Source of the DNA: Rhizobium sp. N324
Lineage (GTDB): Bacteria; Pseudomonadota; Alphaproteobacteria; Rhizobiales; Rhizobiaceae
Reading direction: 5' to 3'
Length of the DNA: 64,000 nucleotides
NCBI RefSeq assembly: GCF_001664485.1
Contig: NZ_CP013630.1
Location: forward strand, 1,987,001-2,051,000
Shown: piece after piece, positions 44,120 through 54,253 of the stretch
Layout: every line of letters begins with the position of its first letter
Numbering within the stretch: position 1 is the stretch's first letter
Position numbers and translations under genes: made by a program
Notes under the pieces: generated by a model
What the model was told of the DNA's origin: nothing
The model's database searches: none
What the model saw: only the letters and a program-made list of their open reading frames with translations

Positions 44120-44171
44120 TGGCGACCCCTGCAGGAATCGAACCTGCGACAACCTGCTTAGAAGGCAGGTG
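44120..44171 (-). other. attL: 3' half of tRNA-Arg(TCT), prophage attachment site
   Basis: On the minus strand the 52 bases contain the anticodon arm CCTGC-CTTCTAA-GCAGG (anticodon TCT), a perfect T-arm around TTCGATT, the acceptor 3' strand AGGGGTC, and CCA at 44120-44122. The expected D-arm and 5' acceptor strand are absent: beyond 44171 the text is unrelated to a tRNA. The integrase gene begins 160 bp to the right. Integration into a tRNA 3' half is usual for tyrosine recombinases, so the 5' half with a restored 3' half should lie at the right end, outside the window. Confidence 0.85.
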
Positions 44172-44329
44172 ACGCCTCCTAACTCCGCCAATCAGTTGAT
44201 ATCAACAGGTTTCGTTGAAAGCCATAGAATCAAGGGCTTGCAGGGCATGTGGTCGATCGTGATAATAACAATCACAATCACGACGTGTCACCTATCCGCC
44301 GTTACCCCGGCGTTACCCTGGATAAAGCG

Positions 44330-45571
44330 ATGGCAAAAGCCCTTACCGTCCGCGCGATCGAAGCAATCAAAAAGCCGGAAGCCCGACAGGAGATCCCCGA
44401 CGGCGGACTGCCCGGACTTTATCTGATCGTGCAGCCCTCGGGGTTGATGAGCTGGGCCATCCGCTACAGGTTTGAGGGAAAGCCGAAGAAGTTCACGATC
44501 GGTCCCGTACCTCTTTATTCGCTGGCGAAAGCTCGTGACGAGGCAGCGAAACTTTTGCGCGATGTTACTGAGGGTAGGGATCCCGCGACAGCCAAGGCAT
44601 CCCAGAGAGCGCTAAAGCTCGACATCGTCGACGACGCTATCAACGAATTCCTCAGGCGATATGTGGAGAAGAAGAACCGGCCCTCGACGATCAAGGAAAG
44701 GACGCGCCTCTTCAAAAAAGACTTCCGCCCCAAGTTTGGGAAGCGGACAATGAGGAGCCTTACCAGACACGAGATTTCGACCCATCTGGATGCCGTGGCA
44801 GATCGGGCGCCTATAGTTGCCAACCGGCTTCTTTCCTTGCTCTCGAAGTTTTTCAATTGGGCTGTCCAAAAGGACATCATCGATAGCTCGCCGATGGAAA
44901 ATAAGATCGACAAGCCCAGCGAAGAGACCACCCGCGACCGAATTTTGACAGATGCGGAGATCAGGCTTGTATGGCTGGCATCCGCCAAGCTTGGTTACCC
45001 CTTCGGGCCAATGGTTCGGCTGCTGCTTCTGACCGCCCAGCGCCGAAGCGAGGTTTCAGGGGCTACGTGGCCTGAAATATATCTCAAAGGGAACGATCAA
45101 CAGTGGGTCATCCCACCTGAGCGGGCGAAAAATCGCAAAGAGCACTTTGTCGCTCTTACGGCGGAAGCCATCAGAGAAATCGAGGCATTGCCGAAGATCC
45201 GGCCAGCCGAGGCCGAGGAGGCAGCTTTCCTTTTCACCACAACGGGCGTGACAAAAGTCTCGGGCTATGGTCGAGCCAAAAAGAACCTTGATGCGGAAAT
45301 GGTCAAACTTGCCAAAGAGGAAGCGCAGGAGCGGGGGCAGTCCCCGAATAAACTGGAACTCGAACCATGGACATTTCACGATCTGAGGCGAACAGCAGCG
45401 AGTGGCATGGCTCGCTTAGGTGTTCCCGTGCATGTCGTCGAAGCAGTGATCAACCACCGCTCGGGAACGATCAAGGGCGTGGCGGCCGTCTACAATCGAT
45501 ATGACTATGCTGACGAAAAGCGAGCCGCGTTGACCGCATGGTCGACCCTTGTGGCCCAGATCGTCGCATGA
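44330..45571 (+). CDS. phage tyrosine-type integrase
   Basis: A 413-residue site-specific recombinase: an N-terminal arm-binding DUF4102-like domain (MAKALTVRAIEAIKKPEARQ, GLPGLYLIVQPSG), a SAM-like core-binding domain (about residues 95-190), and a catalytic domain with the first Arg in TAQRRSEVSGATW, H-x-x-R in FHDLRRTAASGMARLGV and the nucleophile Tyr in AAVYNRYDY. The ATG at 44330 starts at the family-typical residue; a GTG at 44249 is possible. Adjacent to the attachment site, as expected. Confidence 0.93.
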   Translation: MAKALTVRAIEAIKKPEARQEIPDGGLPGLYLIVQPSGLMSWAIRYRFEGKPKKFTIGPVPLYSLAKARDEAAKLLRDVTEGRDPATAKASQRALKLDIVDDAINEFLRRYVEKKNRPSTIKERTRLFKKDFRPKFGKRTMRSLTRHEISTHLDAVADRAPIVANRLLSLLSKFFNWAVQKDIIDSSPMENKIDKPSEETTRDRILTDAEIRLVWLASAKLGYPFGPMVRLLLLTAQRRSEVSGATWPEIYLKGNDQQWVIPPERAKNRKEHFVALTAEAIREIEALPKIRPAEAEEAAFLFTTTGVTKVSGYGRAKKNLDAEMVKLAKEEAQERGQSPNKLELEPWTFHDLRRTAASGMARLGVPVHVVEAVINHRSGTIKGVAAVYNRYDYADEKRAALTAWSTLVAQIVA

Positions 45572-45624: not shown

Positions 45625-46200
45625 TCAGAACGGGATATCGTCGTCTGGATCACGTGAGAAGTTCCCCGCGCTCTTTTCGGGCGTTGCCGTCGATCGCTCA
45701 ACCGGCCACTTAGGCGCCTGCAGTTTTGCGTTCTTCAGTGCTTCTGCCATAGCCTTACCGGCTGCAAAGTAATCTTCGTGCTTCATGTCCTCGTGGAGTT
45801 GAATAAACTCGTCAATACGAGGCCAGAGCACATCCACGTAGTGGTTGAGGTACGTCCGCTTGCTCTCGCCCGTGAAAAAGAACGGCCAGTGCGTCCTCAC
45901 AAATGCAAGACGGCGTTCCTCCTCGAACGTCGGAATAAGCTCGGCAACCTTTGAGACCTCAAGAGCTCGCACCCCTTCGCTCACATCCCAAAGATTCTGC
46001 CACGTGATTTCGTGGTCATCATAGCCGTCTGACCGAGTGATGACGGTGTTTGCCGCCGCGGCGAGAATGGCACGTTCGACGACCGTCGTGATCGTTTGGC
46101 CCTTGTACCTCGCCATGTAGTCGAGGATGAATCGCGTTTTTGGATCCAGCCGGATCGTCAGCGCCTCAGACTTTGGGTTTTTAGATGCAGGTCTGCCCAT
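45625..46200 (-). CDS. ribbon-helix-helix domain protein, possible phage repressor
   Basis: A 191-residue protein starting MGRPASKNPKSEALTIRLDP; residues 12-50 (EALTIRLDPKTRFILDYMAR then TITTVVERAILAA) form a ribbon-helix-helix pattern like DUF1778/CopG DNA-binding proteins. The rest is helical with no known family (about 60-170) and an acidic tail ending DPDDDIPF. The ATG at 46200 follows GGGAAGA and removes an N-terminal extension. It is divergent from the AlpA-like gene with an operator between, so a repressor role is plausible but inferred. Confidence 0.7.
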   Translation of the reverse strand: MGRPASKNPKSEALTIRLDPKTRFILDYMARYKGQTITTVVERAILAAAANTVITRSDGYDDHEITWQNLWDVSEGVRALEVSKVAELIPTFEEERRLAFVRTHWPFFFTGESKRTYLNHYVDVLWPRIDEFIQLHEDMKHEDYFAAGKAMAEALKNAKLQAPKWPVERSTATPEKSAGNFSRDPDDDIPF

Positions 46201-46265
46201 CGAATCTTCCCTATCGCGCGTACGCATAAACAAACTGTGAATAGTTTGCAATCATCACATTAATA

Positions 46266-46302
46266 TTTGCCCGATCATGGTGGTTATTGTATGATAATCA
46301 CC
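46266..46302 (+). promoter_or_regulatory. Predicted early promoter with overlapping inverted-repeat operator
   Basis: TTGCCC (46267-46272) and TATGAT (46290-46295) are 17 bp apart. An inverted repeat with 9-bp arms, ggtggttat (46279-46287) and ataatcacc (46294-46302), one mismatch and a 6-bp spacer, overlaps the -10 box. It sits between the divergent RHH and AlpA-like genes, 25 bp before the AlpA-like start. Confidence 0.6.
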
Positions 46303-46327
46303 GTGCAAAAACATCAGGAGTTTGAGT

Positions 46328-46531
46328 ATGAATGCAGAACATTCGACTCGTGAATATCTGACCGGGAAGCAGGTGGCGACGCGGTATCAGATCACGCCCG
46401 TGTCACTGTACAGATGGGAGCGTGATGAACGCCTCGGCTTTCCCCAGCCGATGATCGTCAACCGTCGCAAGCTTTTCAAAGTTGATGAACTGGTTGCCTG
46501 GGAGCGCTCTCGGGCGAAGGGGGCGGCATGA
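46328..46531 (+). CDS. AlpA-like helix-turn-helix protein
   Basis: A 67-residue protein of the AlpA/excisionase type. It reads EYLTGKQVATRYQITPVSLY then RWERDERLGFPQPMIVNRRK, the winged-helix pattern with the FP-P turn typical of AlpA. ATG at 46328 is placed by AGGAG at 7 bp; a TTG at 46322 is disfavoured. It may regulate excision or early transcription. It starts the early operon, with the next gene overlapping its stop by 4 bp. Confidence 0.85.
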   Translation: MNAEHSTREYLTGKQVATRYQITPVSLYRWERDERLGFPQPMIVNRRKLFKVDELVAWERSRAKGAA

Positions 46532-46659
46532 CCGCCAGCGCAACGAAGCAGCAGGGACACAAAGGTTGGCGCCCGTTCCCTGCCGCCTCGCTCGAAAACC
46601 GCAAACCTACGATTTCCTCTCTCACCAGCGGAAGGACCGCAGATGACAGAAACACGTAA
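46528..46659 (+). CDS. small phage protein (43 aa), overlapping start
   Basis: The ATG at 46528 overlaps the AlpA-like stop (ATGA) and gives 43 residues beginning MTASATKQQGHKGWRPFPAA. It ends 17 bp inside the next gene. Its position in a chain of overlapping genes argues for translation, but it is short, basic and resembles no family I recognise. Confidence 0.45.
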   Translation: MTASATKQQGHKGWRPFPAASLENRKPTISSLTSGRTADDRNT

Positions 46660-46954
46660 ATCACGAACCCGGATGCGAGTCCAGATTTTGGACAAGGGCG
46701 GCCCAGTCGGTACACCGATAACCGTAGTTGGAAGAAATTGTTGGGCGCTGCAGGCGTTGATCGATGCTGGCGCTCGGGGCTTCAGCTCGATCGAACGGCC
46801 CGCTCCTCGGACTGCCCACTACATTCATCGGCTGCGAAGCTTTGGGTTCGCGATCGAAACCCAACACGAGGCTCACGGCGGGACCTACCCAGGGGTGCAC
46901 GCTCGATATCGCCTGTGTTCCGAGATCCGCGTACTTGAAGGGCAGTCAGCATGA
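46643..46954 (+). CDS. phage winged-helix domain protein
   Basis: A 103-residue protein (RVQILDKGGPVGTPITVVGR, CWALQALIDAGARGFSSIER, HYIHRLRSFGFAIETQHEAH) whose central part fits a winged helix-turn-helix, with a recognition-type helix APRTAHYIHRLRSFG followed by a strand pair. Such small winged-helix proteins are common in rhizobial prophage early operons. GGAAGGA precedes the ATG. The next gene overlaps by 4 bp. DNA target unknown. Confidence 0.75.
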   Translation: MTETRKSRTRMRVQILDKGGPVGTPITVVGRNCWALQALIDAGARGFSSIERPAPRTAHYIHRLRSFGFAIETQHEAHGGTYPGVHARYRLCSEIRVLEGQSA

Positions 46955-47139
46955 CAGAGCCTCGCCAGATCAACACGGACTCGGGCGTTACCTTCGCAGC
47001 GCAATGGTGCGCGGATAATCCGCCACGGTCTGACATCATCCCCCAGCTCAAAGCTAGGTTCGCTTTGACTTCTTTGCAGGCTGCGGAAGCTTGTGCCATG
47101 GCCCAGAAATTTCGCGTTCTGCGGAGGGCTTTCGGTTGA
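46951..47139 (+). CDS. small phage protein (62 aa)
   Basis: Starts with ATGA overlapping the previous stop and preceded by AAGGG. The 62 residues (TFAAQWCADNPPRSDIIPQL, KARFALTSLQAAEACAMAQK) are helical; the LTSLQAAEACAMA segment resembles a helix-turn-helix core, but no family is certain. It overlaps the next gene by TTGA. Confidence 0.6.
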   Translation: MTEPRQINTDSGVTFAAQWCADNPPRSDIIPQLKARFALTSLQAAEACAMAQKFRVLRRAFG

Positions 47140-47387
47140 TCGAACAGGCCCAACTTCCCCGACTGGACGTGCGAAAGATTGAGCAGGAAGAGGATTTCAA
47201 CTGGAAAGGACCCGATGTCATTATCCAGGCCCAGCCGGCGACCGCAATTTACCGCAACGTCCATGATGCTGTCGTCATCCGTCAGGAATCGATGACAGAA
47301 GACGACGACCACTTCGTGTTCTTCGCCACCAAATCCGACGTCCGCACCCTGATCAACGCGCTGAAGCGTGAGATTGGGGAGGTCTGA
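47136..47387 (+). CDS. small phage protein (83 aa), TTG start
   Basis: The TTG at 47136 overlaps the previous TGA and is preceded at 8 bp by GGAGG, giving 83 residues. The text VIIQAQPATAIYRNVHDAVV and FVFFATKSDVRTLINALKRE is mixed alpha/beta and acidic. The stop overlaps the next start (TGATG). Not recognised; encoded just before the primase, so a role in replication is possible. Confidence 0.65.
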   Translation: MIEQAQLPRLDVRKIEQEEDFNWKGPDVIIQAQPATAIYRNVHDAVVIRQESMTEDDDHFVFFATKSDVRTLINALKREIGEV

Positions 47388-48427
47388 TGGGGGCGTTCGC
47401 TGAATGGCAACCTCAGTACGCCGCACGGGGCATCAGCTCTTTCCCGGTGACCGTTGATGACAAACGCAAGAAGCCCGCTGTCAAGGGTTACCTCAAGATT
47501 GGGCTTCCAACGAGCAGCCAGCTCGCTCTGAGATTTCTCGCCCATGAGGCTCTTGGCATCGCTTGCAAGCGTAACCGGCTGACAGTTCTCGACGTCGATA
47601 CGACCGACGAACGCGAGCTTGCTGACGGATTGGCGAGGCACGGCACGACGCCGTTCATTGTACGAAGTGGATCGGGTCATTTTCAGGCGTGGTATCGCAA
47701 CGGCGGTGAGGGGCGGCGAATTCGCCCTGATCCAGCACGACCGGTCGATATCCTGGGTGATGGCTATGTCGTCGCGCCGCCCTCAGTGGGCGCACGTGGT
47801 CGATACGAGATTATTCAGGGCTCACTCGATGATTTGGATCGTTTGCCGGCGATGTTGCGGGTTGAACCGCAACATAGACCGATCCCGCGGCGCGGGGAGG
47901 CGAATGCCGATTTATCGGAACGTGTCGACAAGGCCAGTCGTCGCCTCGACGGCATGCGCCAAGGCGACGGTCGCAACAATTCTCTATTCACCCGTGCGAT
48001 GCGCCAAGCCCATCAGGCAGCCACCAAGGAGGAACTAATCCAGATGGTTTCCCAAGCCAACACGCAGTTTGCTGAGCCGCTCCCACCTGATGAAGTGCTT
48101 AGCGTGTCACATTCAGCATGGAAGTATAAGGAGGCCGGCCGCCTCATGATTACCGGCGGCGAGGCGACGGCTGTCGTTTTCCAGAGCGATATCGATCACC
48201 TGTGGGACCAGCCGAATGCTGTCTCCCTGCTTATTCGCCTGCGATTAGCGCACGGACACAGAAACGGCGGGCAGTTCGCACTCTCAAGCGCCTACGCGGA
48301 GTCCATGGACATGAGCATCCCGACCTTCCGCGCCGCCCGTGACGCACTCGTCGAGCGATTTTTTATCGAGATCCTTCATCCGGGTGGAAAGGGAAAGAAC
48401 GATCCGCCCATCGTAAGGTTGCTGTGA
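47387..48427 (+). CDS. primase-polymerase (AEP, prim-pol) domain protein
   Basis: A 346-residue replication protein. The N-terminal 170 residues form a bifunctional primase/polymerase domain: ARGISSFPVTVDDKRKKPAV, the metal-binding VLDVDTTDE near residue 66, FIVRSGSGHFQAWYRN (conserved Ser/His) and VDILGDGYVVAPPS. A primase-C-terminal-like helical region follows (about 190-260), and the tail (270-346) looks like a winged helix. GGGGAGG precedes the ATG. No helicase partner was found nearby, so it may recruit a host helicase. Confidence 0.85.
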   Translation: MGAFAEWQPQYAARGISSFPVTVDDKRKKPAVKGYLKIGLPTSSQLALRFLAHEALGIACKRNRLTVLDVDTTDERELADGLARHGTTPFIVRSGSGHFQAWYRNGGEGRRIRPDPARPVDILGDGYVVAPPSVGARGRYEIIQGSLDDLDRLPAMLRVEPQHRPIPRRGEANADLSERVDKASRRLDGMRQGDGRNNSLFTRAMRQAHQAATKEELIQMVSQANTQFAEPLPPDEVLSVSHSAWKYKEAGRLMITGGEATAVVFQSDIDHLWDQPNAVSLLIRLRLAHGHRNGGQFALSSAYAESMDMSIPTFRAARDALVERFFIEILHPGGKGKNDPPIVRLL

Positions 48428-48518
48428 GACTGAGGCAGAGAGACAAGGAGAGAGATGTGTATAGTTATATTGTAGCAAAATTCTTTCTACTAAGCCTTCT
48501 TGCGAATGGTGGTGCAAA

Positions 48519-48983
48519 ATGAAGGCGCCCCAGATCCTCACCGTCACGCGCAAGTACTGCTGCTCATTCGAGATTACCGATCAATGCGGCAACCTAGTCG
48601 AAGGACCATTTGACACCAATGCCGCTGCGTGGTCGGTCCTCGATCGCATCGACCGCGACACGATACCCGGGAGGTCTCGCAGCAATAAGGTTCTCTGGGG
48701 GAAGCCGGATAAGCCAGCAAAGCGCAATAGCAAGAAGGCGAGCAAGCGCAAAGAGGAGCACCGGATGAAGGTCAATGCCGCAAAGGCGCCTGGCCGGGTT
48801 CGATCCGTTGCTGCAGCCAAGTTTGACCCGGCCGGCGAAGGCAAGTTCCGAGACTACAAGCTGGGCACCTTCGGCGCCGCCTCCGAAGTGAAGCGCATGA
48901 ATCCAGCAACCTATTTGGCAGAGAAAGCAGCGAAGGAGACCACTCGCGCTGTGAATAACGTGGAAGGCGGGAGTTCTCGATGA
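48519..48983 (+). CDS. hypothetical phage protein, basic (154 aa)
   Basis: A 154-residue protein with a small N-terminal beta-rich part (LTVTRKYCCSFEITDQCGNL) and a long lysine-rich, disordered middle (KPAKRNSKKASKRKEEHRMK). Nucleic-acid binding is suggested only by charge. It overlaps the following gene by 4 bp (ATGA). The preceding 91 bp are AT-rich and could hold an internal promoter. Confidence 0.65.
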   Translation: MKAPQILTVTRKYCCSFEITDQCGNLVEGPFDTNAAAWSVLDRIDRDTIPGRSRSNKVLWGKPDKPAKRNSKKASKRKEEHRMKVNAAKAPGRVRSVAAAKFDPAGEGKFRDYKLGTFGAASEVKRMNPATYLAEKAAKETTRAVNNVEGGSSR

Positions 48984-50077
48984 TCCAATCTAACGCAGAA
49001 ATTGCAGAATCAGCTTACCTTAGACCTTTCTTCCGAAAGGCGAAGAGCATGGAACTGCAAGCATTTCCGGTATTCGACGCGCGTCCACCACTCGCTTATA
49101 TAGAATCATGGCGAAGGCATATTGCCGACACGGGCTCACCGGAAACCTTCGACAACGTGTCAAGCACAAAGCCGCCGAAGAACGCCTCGGTGATCCTGCT
49201 GTCGGAGGTGGTCTCGGTTCCAATGTCACTTAGACTGGGAGGGGACAGGGTGCCGTGCCCGCTTTGTTCACCGACCTCGCCAAAATTCGGGAAGGGCAGG
49301 ATGGCTTGGTTTCCTGATGAATGCGTCGTCAGGTTCATCGGCCATAGTTGCGCCAAACGTTACCTCGGAGAGAATTACTCGGCTGCAGAGCGCCTCTTCA
49401 AAATCGAAGCAGCTTGTGCCGACTTTATCGAGCGGTGGCCCAGGGTTCAGGACGCGTTGCCGCAGATCGGCCCCGTTGTCCGCAACCTTTATGGCGTAGG
49501 CCAGCGTCTGAGCCAGCTTAGAGCCTACATCGACAGACAGGCTCCAGGCTTCGCTAGATCGTTCCACGGCGACCTGGTGACGATCGGGGGACGAGTGTTC
49601 ACATCGAGGGAAGCTGGTGTGAAGTCCAGCGCAGTGCTTGGTCTGAAGTTCCTCTCTGAAGACTTCAACCCGGGAAGTGTCGCTGAAAAGCTGATGTCGA
49701 TTTGCCGGGACATCAAAAACCCGCTGCCGAATTGGCAGGTCAGCGATGGTGAGGGGGCGGCGTCACGAGAGATAATTCGTCGCGGCCGGTCGGCATCCCG
49801 TTATCTGAAAGAAATGTCGGCATTAAGAGATCAGATCGAGGATGCTGCTGAATTTCTCACCGTGACCAACCTTCGAATTCTCGAGCAATGGTGCAAATCC
49901 GGGAATTCTCCTTTCACAGTGATCATGTTTGCCCGCGATGGCGAACGGATCGACGGTGTTGTTGAGAGCTATGCTGGCCGATACGGATGGTCGGTGGTCT
50001 ATCCAGGAGATCTGTTGATGGGACTGCCGACGAAAGACGAAATATCAAACCTGGGCATCTCGGAGATTTTCGGTTGA
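48980..50077 (+). CDS. unrecognised phage protein with cysteine cluster (365 aa)
   Basis: A well-formed gene (GGGAG at 6 bp before ATG) whose product matches no family I know. Residues about 92-130 contain CPLC and later HSCAKRYLG, a possible zinc site of the C-x2-C...H-x-C type. The middle (145-185) is helical (FKIEAACADFIERWPRVQ). It lies between the primase region and the NusG-like gene, and its stop overlaps the latter's TTG start. It could act in replication or recombination, but there is no direct evidence. Confidence 0.75.
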   Translation: MIQSNAEIAESAYLRPFFRKAKSMELQAFPVFDARPPLAYIESWRRHIADTGSPETFDNVSSTKPPKNASVILLSEVVSVPMSLRLGGDRVPCPLCSPTSPKFGKGRMAWFPDECVVRFIGHSCAKRYLGENYSAAERLFKIEAACADFIERWPRVQDALPQIGPVVRNLYGVGQRLSQLRAYIDRQAPGFARSFHGDLVTIGGRVFTSREAGVKSSAVLGLKFLSEDFNPGSVAEKLMSICRDIKNPLPNWQVSDGEGAASREIIRRGRSASRYLKEMSALRDQIEDAAEFLTVTNLRILEQWCKSGNSPFTVIMFARDGERIDGVVESYAGRYGWSVVYPGDLLMGLPTKDEISNLGISEIFG

Positions 50078-50736
50078 ACACATCAATGCTGACGAAACCA
50101 TCGGCCACAGTCGCCTGGTATCTAATCCGTGTTGCGCCGGGTGGCCATCGGATGGCCAAAGCAGTAAACGAGGCGATCGAGGAAAGGATTGGAGAAACGC
50201 TGATCGAACGAGAGTGCCGAGAAAGGGGAGTTGCGGTTTTTACGCCGTCGTTTTGGACCGTGGTTCGTCATCAGAGGACAAACCGCCTGATCGAAAAGCG
50301 CTTTCCATTATTCCCCGGCTATTCGTTTGTGCAGGTCACGGGCACAGGCTTCGACACGATCAGGCAGTTCGGCTATGTCTCGCACTTCATGAGGGGTGGC
50401 GGTAAATACGGTCTGGCGTCGTTCACCGATAGGGAAATGGTCATGCTTTACGCCGCGGATATGGAAAAGCGCGACCTGCATCGGACGATGAAGCGGAACG
50501 GCGAGGCCGATGTACGCGAACACAAGCGCAGAGACATCAATCGCAAGATCGGCCTAATCTTTCCGAAGGGGCGCCGCAAGAAGATGCCTTTGCGTATGAT
50601 GGCGTCCGCTGCTATCAATGGCTTGCCCCCGAAAACGCGGGAATATTGCCAAGCGCTTCTCAACGAACTGGATTCGTTGGAAAAACAGGAAGAAGCTTGC
50701 AAGGAGCACCGTCTCGCGATAGACTCCGCAGCGTGA
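50074..50736 (+). CDS. phage NusG N-terminal-domain-like protein, candidate antiterminator
   Basis: A 220-residue protein. After about 10 residues it reads WYLIRVAPGGHRMAKAVNEA, a NusG N-terminal (NGN) opening, then AVFTPSFWTVVRHQRTNRLI and EKRFPLFPGYSFVQV, with the diagnostic FPGY motif. No KOW domain is seen; the C-terminus is a basic region followed by a helix (PKTREYCQALLNELDSLEKQ). NGN proteins bind RNA polymerase and act in elongation. The TTG at 50074 overlaps the previous TGA, with GGAG at 8 bp; an ATG at 50086 is the alternative. It is the last gene of the early operon. Confidence 0.75.
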   Translation: MNTSMLTKPSATVAWYLIRVAPGGHRMAKAVNEAIEERIGETLIERECRERGVAVFTPSFWTVVRHQRTNRLIEKRFPLFPGYSFVQVTGTGFDTIRQFGYVSHFMRGGGKYGLASFTDREMVMLYAADMEKRDLHRTMKRNGEADVREHKRRDINRKIGLIFPKGRRKKMPLRMMASAAINGLPPKTREYCQALLNELDSLEKQEEACKEHRLAIDSAA

Positions 50737-50853
50737 TTTGTGGTGTTTCAGCCGGACCGCCTCATGGCGAAGAACAACTCGGCGGCCGCTTTTGCCGAAC
50801 AATGCATTCGGCGCGATGGAAGAAATGCGTCTAAGTGGCTTCTACGGTTCCAA

Positions 50854-51348
50854 TCACCGAACGTTGAAGAAATCCATTGTTTCTGTAGCGCGGGTTGCAA
50901 ACGGGCGTGGGTCAGGTCTGAAATTCGCCATGGCGTCTTGAAACGCTAAACCCGCTGCAAAGCCGACTGTAAACGGGTGCATTTCCCGATATGCAGCTAG
51001 CTCCCCAACTAATGCGGCAGCTTTCAATTTGGCCTTCTTGGGGGTTTCCTCATCATCCATAATATGACTGAGATATTGGTCAGCGTCGAAAAAGGCGTCT
51101 GCTTTCGGGAAATCGAATCTGTGGAATTGAACGCTGTAGGCCCGAGCCATTCTCTTCTTCATAACCAGGTGATAGATCGTCCAGTATCGGATCAGCGCCC
51201 ATATGCCGATAGGCAAAGGCAGAAGCCACAAAACGGCTAGAACCATTCCGAAGGCTGGAAGTTGCGAGCCCGCCTCCGCGAACCACGCCACGCAAGCAGC
51301 TATGAGAATATCAAGGATGCTAACGAGCAGGACGTACAGCCATTTCAT
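50854..51348 (-). CDS. phage-borne membrane protein, opposite strand (164 aa)
   Basis: A 164-residue protein with two N-terminal membrane segments (MKWLYVLLVSILDILIAACV and FGMVLAVLWLLPLPIGIWAL) and a soluble C-terminal part (YREMHPFTVGFAAGLAFQDA). GAGG lies 6 bp before the ATG. It follows the other minus-strand gene by 7 bp, so the two form an operon against the direction of the phage genes. Candidate lysogenic-conversion or superinfection-exclusion factor; no family is recognised. Confidence 0.7.
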   Translation of the reverse strand: MKWLYVLLVSILDILIAACVAWFAEAGSQLPAFGMVLAVLWLLPLPIGIWALIRYWTIYHLVMKKRMARAYSVQFHRFDFPKADAFFDADQYLSHIMDDEETPKKAKLKAAALVGELAAYREMHPFTVGFAAGLAFQDAMANFRPDPRPFATRATETMDFFNVR

Positions 51349-51355
51349 AACGACC

Positions 51356-51832
51356 TCAGGTATCCTTGTTTAGCGTCAATATGAGTGAGATGATTCCCGT
51401 GATTGCCCCGATCGTTCCAAATATGATCGCCAATCGGCTCTGAACGACATCGATACGCTCTCTTACTTCGCGGCGGATACTTTTCCGGAGAATGTCGATC
51501 CCGGCAGTGGTTAGTAAGCGTTCATGAAGACTGCCGTGGGCGACTTCCCAAAACTGCTCGTCTTCAGCCACAGGTATTCCGAGTTCAGCAGCTTGAGTGA
51601 GCAGAAATTTCGTTTGTGATCTCGCGGGCTCTTGGAGGGCGATAGCCTTCTCGGTGAAGAGGGCATCCCTCCGCATCTCAATACCCAAGCGTTCGGCGAA
51701 CCCGACGTCCTCCGGAAGCTCATGCAACCTCTGCTGAACGTCGGCTATCTTCTTGTCAATTTGATCCACCCTGTTTGCGACATCGATTGCGAGCATTTTC
51801 ATGTCACGGGAATGACGCAGATCACGAAACAT
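51356..51832 (-). CDS. phage-borne tail-anchored protein, opposite strand (158 aa)
   Basis: With the ATG at 51832, preceded by a very strong GGAGGGGGAG, the product has 158 residues: a helical, coiled-coil-like N-terminal part (VANRVDQIDKKIADVQQRLH), a middle region, and one C-terminal membrane helix (LAIIFGTIGAITGIISLILT). A longer frame overlapping the spike-base gene has no support. It heads a two-gene minus-strand operon. Function unknown; the architecture resembles membrane-tethered phage exclusion proteins only in general form. Confidence 0.7.
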   Translation of the reverse strand: MFRDLRHSRDMKMLAIDVANRVDQIDKKIADVQQRLHELPEDVGFAERLGIEMRRDALFTEKAIALQEPARSQTKFLLTQAAELGIPVAEDEQFWEVAHGSLHERLLTTAGIDILRKSIRREVRERIDVVQSRLAIIFGTIGAITGIISLILTLNKDT

Positions 51833-51964
51833 CAGTTCGCTCCCCCTCCGAAAGCTATCAAAGCTTGAACTATCAGAGCGTGCATGTCGAGTGTGCGTGA
51901 GTGAAACGGGAAAATTCTGCACTGCCTCTCTCCGGATCGAGCGAGCTATTACAAGGAAAACAAA

Positions 51965-52201
51965 ATGGACCCTTCGATTGCGCCGGCCTCGCGGGCTGCC
52001 GTGGTGACGCCGAACGACTCCGCCATTGTCGGTGCACGCGCGCTCTATATCGGGACGGCAGGCGACGTTGCCATTGCGCCGCGCCGGGACGTGGACCCCG
52101 TCATCTTCAAGAGCGTGCCGGCAGGGACGATCCTTCCCGTCCATGCGGCCATTGTGGCGCTTACCGGCACCACCGCATCCAACATCATCGCCCTCTTCTA
52201 A
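51965..52201 (+). CDS. spike-base-like protein (RCAP_rcc01079 type)
   Basis: A 78-residue protein (AAVVTPNDSAIVGARALYIG, TAGDVAIAPRRDVDPVIFKS, VPAGTILPVHAAIVALTGTT). The pattern ARALYIGTAGDV...VPAGTILPV...TGTTASNI is that of the small beta-structured spike base protein of the Rhodobacter gene transfer agent family. The same small domain is found in phages. It is the first late gene here, before the terminase genes, and may be a capsid decoration or spike component. Confidence 0.75.
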   Translation: MDPSIAPASRAAVVTPNDSAIVGARALYIGTAGDVAIAPRRDVDPVIFKSVPAGTILPVHAAIVALTGTTASNIIALF

Positions 52202-52242
52202 AGGGGACGCATAACGTCCAGCCGATCAGAAGGCAGGAGACA

Positions 52243-52716
52243 ATGACAGGCAGACCGACGAAGTTCACGCATTCCCTCGCTGACGTCATTTGTGAGCGCA
52301 TCGCTGATGGCGAAAGCCTACGATCGATCTGCAGGGATGAGGCGATGCCGGCGAAGTCAACCGTGCTTGCGTGGCTTGCCGATGACGAGAAAGCGGCATT
52401 TCGGACCAAGTATGCGCAGGCGCGCGAGATCCAGGCCGACGGCTTCGTCGACGAGATGGTCGAGATTGCCGACGACGGCACGAACGACTGGATGGAGAAG
52501 AAGAGCGCCGATGGTGAAACGACTGGCTGGCAGGAGAACGGTGAAGCCATCCGCCGCTCACAGCTTCGTATCGGCACGCGCCAATGGATCGCGGAGAAAC
52601 TGAAGCCGAAGAAGTACGGCGCCAAGGTCGAGCTGGAGCACGGCGTGACGAGTGGCGTGGCTGAGTTGTTGGAAGCGATCAATGGCAAAACCCGCGGACT
52701 TCCAAACGGCGGTTGA
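52243..52716 (+). CDS. terminase small subunit
   Basis: A 157-residue DNA-recognition subunit of the packaging motor. An N-terminal helix-turn-helix (ADVICERIADGESLRSICRD, PAKSTVLAWLADDEKAAFR) is typical of terminase small subunits, followed by a helical oligomerisation region (REIQADGFVDEMVEIADDG). The ATG at 52243 follows AGGAG. Its 3' end overlaps the large subunit gene by 35 bp, usual for this pair. Confidence 0.87.
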   Translation: MTGRPTKFTHSLADVICERIADGESLRSICRDEAMPAKSTVLAWLADDEKAAFRTKYAQAREIQADGFVDEMVEIADDGTNDWMEKKSADGETTGWQENGEAIRRSQLRIGTRQWIAEKLKPKKYGAKVELEHGVTSGVAELLEAINGKTRGLPNGG

Positions 52717-54253
52717 CCAGTTCTCGGACTGGCGCTGGCGGCTGAACAACCTTTACTGGATCACGGACAAGGAAGGCAAAAGGGTCCGGTTCGAAATGAA
52801 CTGGGCCCAGATGACCTTCTTCGAGCAGATGCATTATCTGAACGTGCTGCTAAAGGCCCGCCAGCTCGGCCTGACGACGTTCATTCAGATCTTCATGCTC
52901 GATGCCTGTGTGTTCAATCGGGATATCCGCGCCGGCACCATCGCGCACACGCTCGGCGACGCCCAGACCATATTCAGGGACAAGGTCAAATACCCGTACG
53001 ACAATCTGCCCGAAGCTATTCGCGATGCGGTCCCGATCCAGAGGGACAATCAGACGGAACTACTGCTTGGGAATAACTCGAGCATCCGCGTCGGCACGTC
53101 GCTCCGATCGGGCACGCTGCAGTACCTCCATATCTCGGAATATGGCAAGCTCTGCGCGAAGTATCCGGAGAAGGCGAGGGAGGTCAGAACCGGCGCGCTT
53201 AACACGGTGCAGGCCGGGCAGCTCGTGTTCATCGAAAGCACCGCCGAGGGGCAAGAGGGGCATTTCTACAATCTCTGCGAAGACGCCCAGGTCAAGCATC
53301 GCCAGGCATCAGCGCTGACACCACTGGATTTCAAGTTCCATTTTTTCCCGTGGTGGAAAGAGCCGCAATATTCGATTGATCCGGCCGGTGTCATCATCAC
53401 CGACGCTTTCGCCAAGTATTTTGGAGGTCTCGCAGATCAGGGGATCGATCTGACGGACGGGCAAAAGGCCTGGTACGTGAAGAAGGCTGAGACGCAGCTC
53501 GGCGACATGAAGCGGGAATACCCGTCGTCGCCGGCGGAAGCATTCGAAGCCAGCGTCGAGGGTGCTTATTATGCCGACCAGATGGCGGTTGCCGACGCTG
53601 AGGAGCGTATAGGCATCTACCCGCATGTGGCCGGTTATCCAGTCCACACCATCTCTGACATCGGCATGGATGACACCAACAGCGTCTGGCTGTTCCAGGT
53701 GCTTCCGAGCCGGGTGCGGATGATCGGCTACTTCGAGCACACCGGCACCGGCATGGACGGCATGCTGGACGAACTGGAGCGCCGCGCCAAAGAGCACGGC
53801 TATGTCTACGGCGTGCACAACATGCCGCACGACATCCGTGTCAGGGAGTGGACGCGCGGCGGCATGACGCGCATCGAGGTGATGCTCGTCGAGGTCAAGG
53901 CTCGAAACCTCGGTACCGTCCGGAAGGTGGAGCGGGCTTATGTCCATGACCGCATCAACGGCACGCGGCGCATTCTGGCAAAGATCGAATTCGACCAGGC
54001 CGGCTGCGCGCAGGGCATCAAATGCCTGCGGAATTACCGGAAGGAATGGGACGAGGATCTGAGCGTCTTCCGTGACGAGCCGCTGCACAACTGGGCATCG
54101 CACGGCGCCGACGCTTTCGGCGGCCTCGCTATCATCTTCACGGGCCTGGCGGCCGAACCATTGAAGCCGGAACCGAAGCCGCTGCCGACGTTCCAGACCA
54201 TGACGTTCAACGATTTCGTCAACTCCACACCGACCTATAGCGAGCACGTTTGA
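52682..54253 (+). CDS. terminase large subunit
   Basis: The ATPase and nuclease that drives and cuts DNA during packaging; 523 residues. The Walker A variant is LLKARQLGLTTF near residue 60 and the Walker B region is YLHISEYGK near 150, with the coupling motif VFIESTAEG after it. The RNase H-like nuclease domain begins at about residue 320 (TISDIGMDDTNSVWLFQV), with HNWASHGADAFG carrying a later acidic residue. Start at 52682 within the small subunit gene; ends at the portal start (TGATG). Confidence 0.92.
   Translation: MAKPADFQTAVDQFSDWRWRLNNLYWITDKEGKRVRFEMNWAQMTFFEQMHYLNVLLKARQLGLTTFIQIFMLDACVFNRDIRAGTIAHTLGDAQTIFRDKVKYPYDNLPEAIRDAVPIQRDNQTELLLGNNSSIRVGTSLRSGTLQYLHISEYGKLCAKYPEKAREVRTGALNTVQAGQLVFIESTAEGQEGHFYNLCEDAQVKHRQASALTPLDFKFHFFPWWKEPQYSIDPAGVIITDAFAKYFGGLADQGIDLTDGQKAWYVKKAETQLGDMKREYPSSPAEAFEASVEGAYYADQMAVADAEERIGIYPHVAGYPVHTISDIGMDDTNSVWLFQVLPSRVRMIGYFEHTGTGMDGMLDELERRAKEHGYVYGVHNMPHDIRVREWTRGGMTRIEVMLVEVKARNLGTVRKVERAYVHDRINGTRRILAKIEFDQAGCAQGIKCLRNYRKEWDEDLSVFRDEPLHNWASHGADAFGGLAIIFTGLAAEPLKPEPKPLPTFQTMTFNDFVNSTPTYSEHV

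Follow-up and report, generated by a model that had tools for sequence, protein, structure and literature searches.

A phage NusG-like gene and the conserved structured RNA behind it as a candidate antitermination unit in a Rhizobium prophage

We analyzed a stretch of 64,000 nucleotides (nt) from the genome of Rhizobium sp. N324 (contig NZ_CP013630.1, positions 1,987,001 to 2,051,000; hereafter the window, in whose own numbering positions are given), where a prophage carries a gene for a NusG-like protein between its replication genes and its terminase genes. A conserved, structured RNA element of ~100 nt begins at the stop codon of this gene, and gene and RNA together probably form one processive antitermination unit, a reading to which we assign a probability of roughly 0.7. 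The protein class is already known from annotation (PHROG 25909, phage phiLM21) and the protein by itself is not new; what we did not find described earlier is the pairing of the protein with an RNA, together with the leader copies and tail variants of this pair.

A conserved RNA element behind the NusG-like gene

The flanks of the ten nearest relatives of the window gene share a conserved block of ~100 nt starting at the stop codon, with little alignable sequence beyond it until the terminase region. The block corresponds to an element with four helices (P1 to P4, Table 1), whose conserved 5' end, UGAUUUG, contains the stop codon of the NusG-like gene. Its core consists of UGAUUU, P1, UGUUnCAG, P2, GACC, P3, GGGAAYACU, the 3' strands of P2 and P1, the P4 hairpin, and a GGAGAAAUGCGCC-like tail; the P3-P2 loop of the window's own group departs from this general core. 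Both the phiLM21-like and the N28-like loci show this RNA architecture behind the NusG-like gene; as the stop codon of the N28-like genes precedes the conserved UGAUUUG by 12-36 nt, coding does not account for the conservation of this motif. No family of Rfam 15 overlaps the element in the window, either at the gathering threshold or at E ≤ 10, nor does any at gathering in 12 further element-carrying loci.

Since single-sequence folds are mostly no better than shuffles (see below), the claim of a structured RNA rests on covariation. Our main alignment (A3) comprises 49 sequences, obtained from 51 dereplicated candidates by omitting L090 and L147; it excludes the window and, among the ten nearest relatives of the latter, includes only L008. 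When all A3 column pairs with at least 35 rows were scanned, the inner P1 pair came out at the top, with the four Watson-Crick types and 49 of 49 sequences paired. The 15-pair structure is paired in 86.7% of A3 cells, compared with 74.3% in shuffles, and has a covariation score of 0.308, compared with 0.117 (0 of 500 shuffles in both cases), and slid versions of the structure reach at most 53.8% paired cells and a covariation of 0.132. P2 is invariant in A3 and thus uninformative there. Parsed by its anchors without any threshold in 76 distinct NGN-adjacent elements, P1 has four or five of its five pairs in 71 of them and zero or two in five (mean 90.8%), whereas shuffled 3' strands, likewise re-optimized, reach 60.6% (maximum 68.4% of 500). 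P1 covaries strongly: on a tree of 98 NusG-like proteins, it underwent 38 two-sided compensatory changes (13, 0, 8, 13, and 4 per pair), with 0, 0, 1, 2, and 6 changes involving a mismatch for the five pairs. This count kept only rows with at least three of the five pairs, which inflates its paired fraction of 96.5%, although the distance from the control is the same as for the unthresholded figure. In a separate alignment of the window and its ten relatives (A5), pairing reaches 95.5% of the P1 and P2 cells, a level attained by 0 of 500 shuffles; P3 and P4, which are out of register in the window's own group, do not enter this count. A covariance model (R1) built from A3, without the window in its training set, recovers the window element with 36.9 bits (E 5.9e-6), the next match having an E value of 9.2; it is also the sole match reported by R1 in its own genome (150 of 3369 candidates scored).

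Linkage between the element and NGN-domain genes

A pattern describing the P2/P3 core, applied without use of the protein, matched at least 120 stretches of viral contigs, not dereplicated. Among the 120 matches listed, 99 also carry P1, which was absent from the pattern, six carry GATTTG only, and 15 carry neither. A gene encoding an NGN domain ends within 150 nt upstream in 89 of the 99 P1-bearing copies listed and is found upstream in two of the 21 P1-less ones; the remaining P1-bearing copies either have less than 400 nt of upstream sequence (three) or have no NGN gene there (seven). The NGN profile used for this count was built from proteins upstream of the matches, with some loci omitted by name, after the same link had already been observed with a profile based on a protein alignment (A1, see below). 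The gene can also be more distant: it lies 0.9-1.1 kb upstream in L131, L136, L138, L142, and L167, with another gene or frame in between, and an HNH gene is inserted between it and the element in L070/L141. No NGN gene was found in the up to 1.8 kb examined for L095, L100, L148, and L179.

The link also appears from the protein side. Of 75 loci collected for the similarity of their protein, with duplicates and members of the training set retained, 65 have an R1 match at E ≤ 0.01, and in 63 this match is directly behind the gene; the HNH gene intervenes in L070, and in L012 the match is a second copy 0.6 kb further on. A smaller search adds L009 (E 0.0033), the adjacent copy of L012 (0.033), and L003 (0.095). 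Such a conserved RNA behind the NusG-like gene makes an antitermination role of the latter more likely. The second copy in L012 (7947-8033, E 0.0011) is a shortened one that lies shortly ahead of the terminase small subunit gene.

The partner proteins do not all end in the same way. That of L140 matches full-length NusG (E 1e-9) and, with residues 142-190, isolated NusG KOW domains (6duq, 2kvq, E ~2e-4). PF02357 was found in all ten proteins of a set made up of nine partners with another C-terminal domain of this sort and L077, the Pfam short KOW model matching only L077 among them, just under the cut-off. Because partners with different C-terminal domains carry the same RNA, the element goes with the NGN domain whatever the tail.

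Concerning its wider distribution, 39 of 40 records or genomes picked as carriers contain one copy and one contains two. Within 394 genomes of the host's family (by inference, Rhizobiaceae), the element occurs in 21, belonging to 11 of 109 genera, at 29 places. Across 385 genomes of the class, R1 found it in its own genome alone, with nine candidates scored per genome, so that absence elsewhere is weakly tested. A pattern search across the order matched two of 397 genomes, one of them (L225) chance-like, with a pattern that misses the window copy itself.

Several flanks show additional features. Those of type D (L013, L045, L047, L050, L063, L066, and L069) have the tail and hairpin in common and related pieces of the core, without a clear core, and are apparently a rearranged form of the element. 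tRNA-like sequences are located immediately behind the element or type D flank in L006, L007, L012, L013, L015, L016, L049, L057, L069, and L074, that of L013 being confirmed by Rfam. L008, L024, L025, L029, L037, and L061 share, with small changes, a further conserved stretch, TTGCCCGGTAGTGCTGCTGGAAAATGCAGATAGACCCCGACTGGGCAAG, ~130-230 nt past the NusG-like gene, possibly another RNA, and one phage contig carries, a short distance past the element, a member of the alphaproteobacterial small RNA family ar35 of Rfam (L055:8774-8911).

Leader copies, terminators, and a candidate pause motif

A conserved block TAATCCTTTnnnTAGGA...AAATCAGtnTATA is present directly ahead of the element in 16 of 116 distinct copies, compared with a frequency of 0.06% in shuffled sequences, the pattern having been written after those sequences were known. 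From its sequence, we read this block as a promoter. Stand-alone copies occur in series downstream of a NusG-like gene and in the same direction, two in genome G650 and three in G596, 1.4-2.4 kb and 21-29 kb away. Where stand-alone copies follow the promoter-like block, the genome encodes a NusG-like protein in addition to the housekeeping NusG (G596, G650, G762, and G447), with the exception of G533. These copies sit where a loading site in a 5' leader, rather than a 3' structure, would be expected. In L206, L207, L209, L210, L212, L217, L223, L224, and others, a conserved block ~30-75 nt before the core combines an inverted repeat (TAATCCT..AGGATTA) with a TATA-like box and is likely a regulated promoter.

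In 18 of 64 loci, an intrinsic terminator is located no more than 100 nt behind the element, compared with 3.8% of random stretches (n = 1280). The end of the element resembles a site of RNA polymerase pausing. The consensus scored includes positions beyond G-10 and Y-1G+1, and 43 of 102 distinct tails score 5 or 6 on it, when 14.6 would be expected from shuffles. G-10 and Y-1G+1 belong to the pause consensus described in PMC5423485.

The NusG-like protein

The gene starts with a TTG codon that overlaps the stop of the preceding open reading frame (ORF, 48980-50077), ends with a stop codon at 50734-50736, and encodes 220 amino acids. A preliminary description, made from the window sequence, had presented the product as a phage NusG paralog with an NGN-type opening, no KOW domain, and a basic, helical tail, occupying a position similar to that of lambda Q; these features were confirmed, and this is still the best reading. 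Pfam NusG (PF02357) matches residues 15-122 with 31.4 bits (cut-off 22.2), the NGN domain spans approximately residues 13-132 and the basic helical tail residues 133-211, and Pfam detected no KOW domain at E ≤ 0.1. The AlphaFold model (predicted local distance difference test, pLDDT, 81; predicted template modeling score, pTM, 0.63) shows the NGN fold followed by helices 119-162, 173-183, and 186-211, without the KOW barrel, and its nearest structural match is polymerase-bound RfaH. The FPGY motif pointed out in that description is present in the window protein but not conserved as such: in A1, which contains 35 NusG-like sequences, the consensus is LVGY, with invariance limited to G and Y, and the W-Y opening is invariant as well. 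The tail has its own motif, GxIFPKGRRKK, in which, across the 35 sequences, G160, P164, K165, G166, and R167 never vary and I162, F163, R168, and K169 hardly do, and it is therefore under selection.

By its NGN domain the protein belongs to the NusG/Spt5 superfamily, and it matches phrog_25909 ("transcription antiterminator") almost end to end (E 4.6e-47, residues 13-211 of 220, profile positions 9-216 of 220). It is not the housekeeping NusG: it scores 15.3 bits on the corresponding NCBIfam equivalog (cut-off 135.7) and lacks KOW, and a separate NusG with a KOW-type end is encoded in the same genome (C1:1795670). Nor does it reach the cut-offs for RfaH (TIGR01955, 15.7 of 144.5 bits), LoaP (NF033641, 15.8 of 125), or UpxY (NF033644, 25.7 of 100). 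A protein database search retrieved 41 homologs out of 172 candidates, those with an organism name coming from Rhizobium, Sinorhizobium/Ensifer, and Agrobacterium. Relatives occur in four phage records, namely phiLM21 (two records, 37% identity) and the Rhizobium phages RHph_N28_2 and RHph_TM3_3_3 (33%), all annotated as NusG-like or transcription antiterminator. A NusG paralog had been thought unusual for a phage; with these annotations and an existing PHROG family, it is not so among rhizobial phages.

The same genome contains a second NusG-like gene (L077, C1:3808209-3811493) with a KOW-like tail, near HNH and terminase-like ORFs (phage gene names by reading). Behind it lie a different conserved noncoding stretch of ~190 nt and an intrinsic terminator, whose stem is maintained by paired changes in the comparison of L077 with L234-L237.

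Prophage context

Upstream of the NusG-like gene are a primase-type ORF and unassigned ORFs, and downstream the two terminase subunits (from 52243). The gene had been called the last early gene, and it does lie between the replication genes and the terminase; two minus-strand ORFs and a small plus-strand ORF nevertheless intervene, and the term describes gene order, not transcription. Annotation of phiLM21 and RHph_N28_2 gives the same gene order as in the window. When the window was considered together with 75 further loci (L001-L075), 65 of the 76 had a terminase-type gene on the same strand, at a distance of 0.9-4.2 kb downstream; no terminase was recognized in the other 11 with the queries used, and none lies upstream of the NusG-like gene in any of the 76 within the sequence compared. 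These terminases are of different types. In Rhizobium johnstonii 3841 (L020), a late module 89-96% identical to that of the window is preceded by a different NusG-like gene. Consensus scans of 46200-53000 were uninformative for the window, both for promoter-like (3 matches, 2.9 in shuffles) and terminator-like sequences (11, compared with 6.7 ± 3.1).

The preliminary description had also proposed a search for an element like ops, the DNA site of RfaH, for which the consensus is GGCGGTAGCGTG. The region 50737-52242 contains one match with three mismatches and none with two or fewer, and the whole window contains 101 matches compared with a chance mean of 90.5, so that the candidate was rejected. 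At 44130-45571, a partial tRNA match (29.4 bits, minus strand) next to an ORF read as a tyrosine-type integrase (44249-45571) marks a probable attachment end of the prophage.

Table 1. Features of the window around the NusG-like gene and the RNA element
Feature	Position	Strand	Basis or remark
NusG-like (NGN-domain) phage protein gene	50074..50736	+	ORF list, Pfam, PHROG, alignment A1, structure model
Structured RNA element	50734..50836	+	Flank comparison; covariance-model match 50727-50838, E 5.9e-6
Helix P1, 5' strand	50740..50743	+	Pairs with 50786-50789; compensatory changes, A5 pairing
Helix P1, 3' strand	50786..50789	+	Pairs with 50740-50743
Helix P2, 5' strand	50751..50754	+	Pairs with 50780-50783; A5 pairing
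Helix P2, 3' strand	50780..50783	+	Pairs with 50751-50754
Apical hairpin P3	50758..50769	+	50758-50761 with 50766-50769; by eye in the window, family helix 3
Hairpin P4	50794..50812	+	50794-50799 with 50807-50812; by eye in the window, family helix 4
Candidate RNA polymerase pause GGAAGAAATGCG at element end	50818..50829	+	Pause-type consensus, all six scored positions
ORF between element and late genes	50854..51348	-	No PHROG match, no Pfam match above cut-off
Second ORF, part of longer open frame 51356-52144	51356..51832	-	Weak phrog_19471 match (function unknown), E 3.4e-4
Terminase small subunit, first recognizable late gene	52243..52716	+	PF20901 E 4.5e-42, phrog_1482
Terminase large subunit	52652..54253	+	phrog_2 E 2.4e-24

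Proposed mechanism and alternative explanations

The most economical reading of these analyses is processive antitermination with RNA-guided loading, as for LoaP. RNA polymerase would traverse the early operon, transcribing the gene for the NusG-like protein and then the RNA element, which would fold into P1-P4 as it emerges, probably during a polymerase pause at GGAAGAAATGCG. The folded element would recruit the NusG-like protein, the NGN domain of which would then be placed on the polymerase clamp, like NusG and RfaH, and the polymerase so modified may pass the terminators in the extra-gene zone to reach the terminase and the other late genes. That the protein binds the RNA and the polymerase, that the polymerase pauses, and that terminators are read through and late genes controlled in this way is our inference.

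Several observations weigh against this antitermination unit. P4 is paired in only 69% of A3 cells, where it is poorly aligned. In single-sequence folding, one of 11 sequences has a z score below -2 and the window has +1.04, and the comparative fold of the window (-20.9) lies 7 kcal/mol above its minimum-energy fold (-28.0), so that the RNA may need a protein or the kinetics of transcription to fold in this way. Ten of the 75 loci fetched by protein similarity have no match at E ≤ 0.01, and of the 29 bacterial-genome copies, 15 lie within 60 nt of an NGN ORF, one is 1.1 kb from such an ORF, and 13 have none within 1.5 kb. The window's own class has no room behind the gene for a promoter of the element, the leader argument coming from another subclass. 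Finally, the excess of terminators is mostly due to phiLM21-like loci, which are non-independent, and the window copy lacks an intrinsic terminator in the adjacent 100 nt.

Some of the same data could fit other explanations. As the element runs from the stop codon of the gene to a pause-like motif, and a terminator comes after it in a number of loci, the NusG-like protein might bind the RNA so that transcription pauses or terminates past the protein's own gene, a feedback or attenuation device acting as a timing brake instead of an antiterminator. We consider this unlikely, because other copies lie behind the promoter-like block, at the starts of transcription units, and recognizable late genes follow on the same strand in most loci. 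Slightly less probable still is that the RNA acts alone on RNA polymerase, like the put RNA of phage HK022, which needs no protein (PMC9378689), the NusG-like protein having some general function such as opposing Rho or coupling to translation. The constancy of the element while the C-terminal domain switches between KOW and helical forms would agree with this, as would the 13 bacterial-genome copies without a nearby NGN ORF. However, most P1-bearing copies listed from the phage-contig scan adjoin an NGN gene, L131, L138, and L141 have one ~1 kb or one HNH gene away, and four of the genomes with stand-alone copies, G533 being the exception, own a NusG-like gene besides the housekeeping NusG. 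That the RNA is unrelated to the protein, being a packaging signal, a small RNA, or a 3' stabilizer located by chance between early and late genes, seems to us very improbable: the proximity of a terminase-type gene downstream would be compatible with it, but the element stays with the NusG-like gene across changing terminase types, some copies are located elsewhere, and none of the loci searched has an Rfam family overlapping the element.

Processive antitermination by the gene and its RNA may be part of something larger. Many Rhizobiaceae phages might control their late genes by an undescribed system in which NGN proteins are loaded by a shared nascent RNA, the element being kept while the C-terminal domain changed (KOW barrel, KOW-like, or helical tail). 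In one branch, the element would have come to occupy several leaders that share a promoter, so that one antitermination regulon spans multiple operons, and a second prophage of the host would have an analogous pair with an unrelated RNA. We advance this whole picture tentatively, the odds being slightly against it.

In the open-access literature (subscription papers and preprints lying outside), we recognized no description of an RNA element paired with a phage NusG and found no work on late-gene switching in rhizobial phages beyond annotation; the phage passages of two NusG reviews (PMC7819879 and PMC6391919) do not name a phage-encoded NusG of this kind. A NusG paralog with a covarying RNA offers a testable answer to how these phages switch on their late genes and, if true, shows how a NusG-family protein may work after the loss of KOW. 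It also contributes a new family of RNA, together with a covariance model that can be used.

Comparison with known systems

A NusG paralog that switches on a phage-derived operon is reportedly found in the Serratia antifeeding prophage, where the RfaH-type regulator is said to be plasmid-borne and RfaH-like; we know of no covarying RNA element associated with it. To our knowledge, lambda Q, AlpA, and GafZ are not NusG paralogs. They resemble the system proposed here in being antiterminators that switch on the late genes of phages or the cluster of a gene transfer agent, but the elements that they bind, known or putative, are located in promoter DNA (PMC11150451). The put sequence of HK022 provides a phage precedent for a cis-acting nascent RNA that suppresses pausing and termination, although it works on early genes and without a dedicated protein (PMC9378689). 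A protein counterpart is phiLM21 gp34 (phrog_25909), of the same family, in the same place, and with 37% identity, described as an antiterminator at the end of the early region; it is known from annotation only, and the passages concerning it do not mention an RNA element (PMC12429752).

RfaH shares the NGN fold, is the best structural match, and is recruited at a pause, as we propose here, but it reads non-template DNA (PMC12691694), whereas no ops was found in the window, and its C-terminal domain switches (PMC6370827). LoaP of Bacillota is likewise a NusG paralog encoded near its target operon, with a hairpin and a pause site in the leader RNA; the hairpin is required, and read-through of a NusA-dependent terminator ensues (PMC12691694). 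The LoaP RNA is a small UNCG-type hairpin (PMC12691694) and LoaP serves host operons, whereas the Rhizobium system would combine a four-helix element of ~100 nt with a NusG paralog devoid of KOW in the service of a phage.
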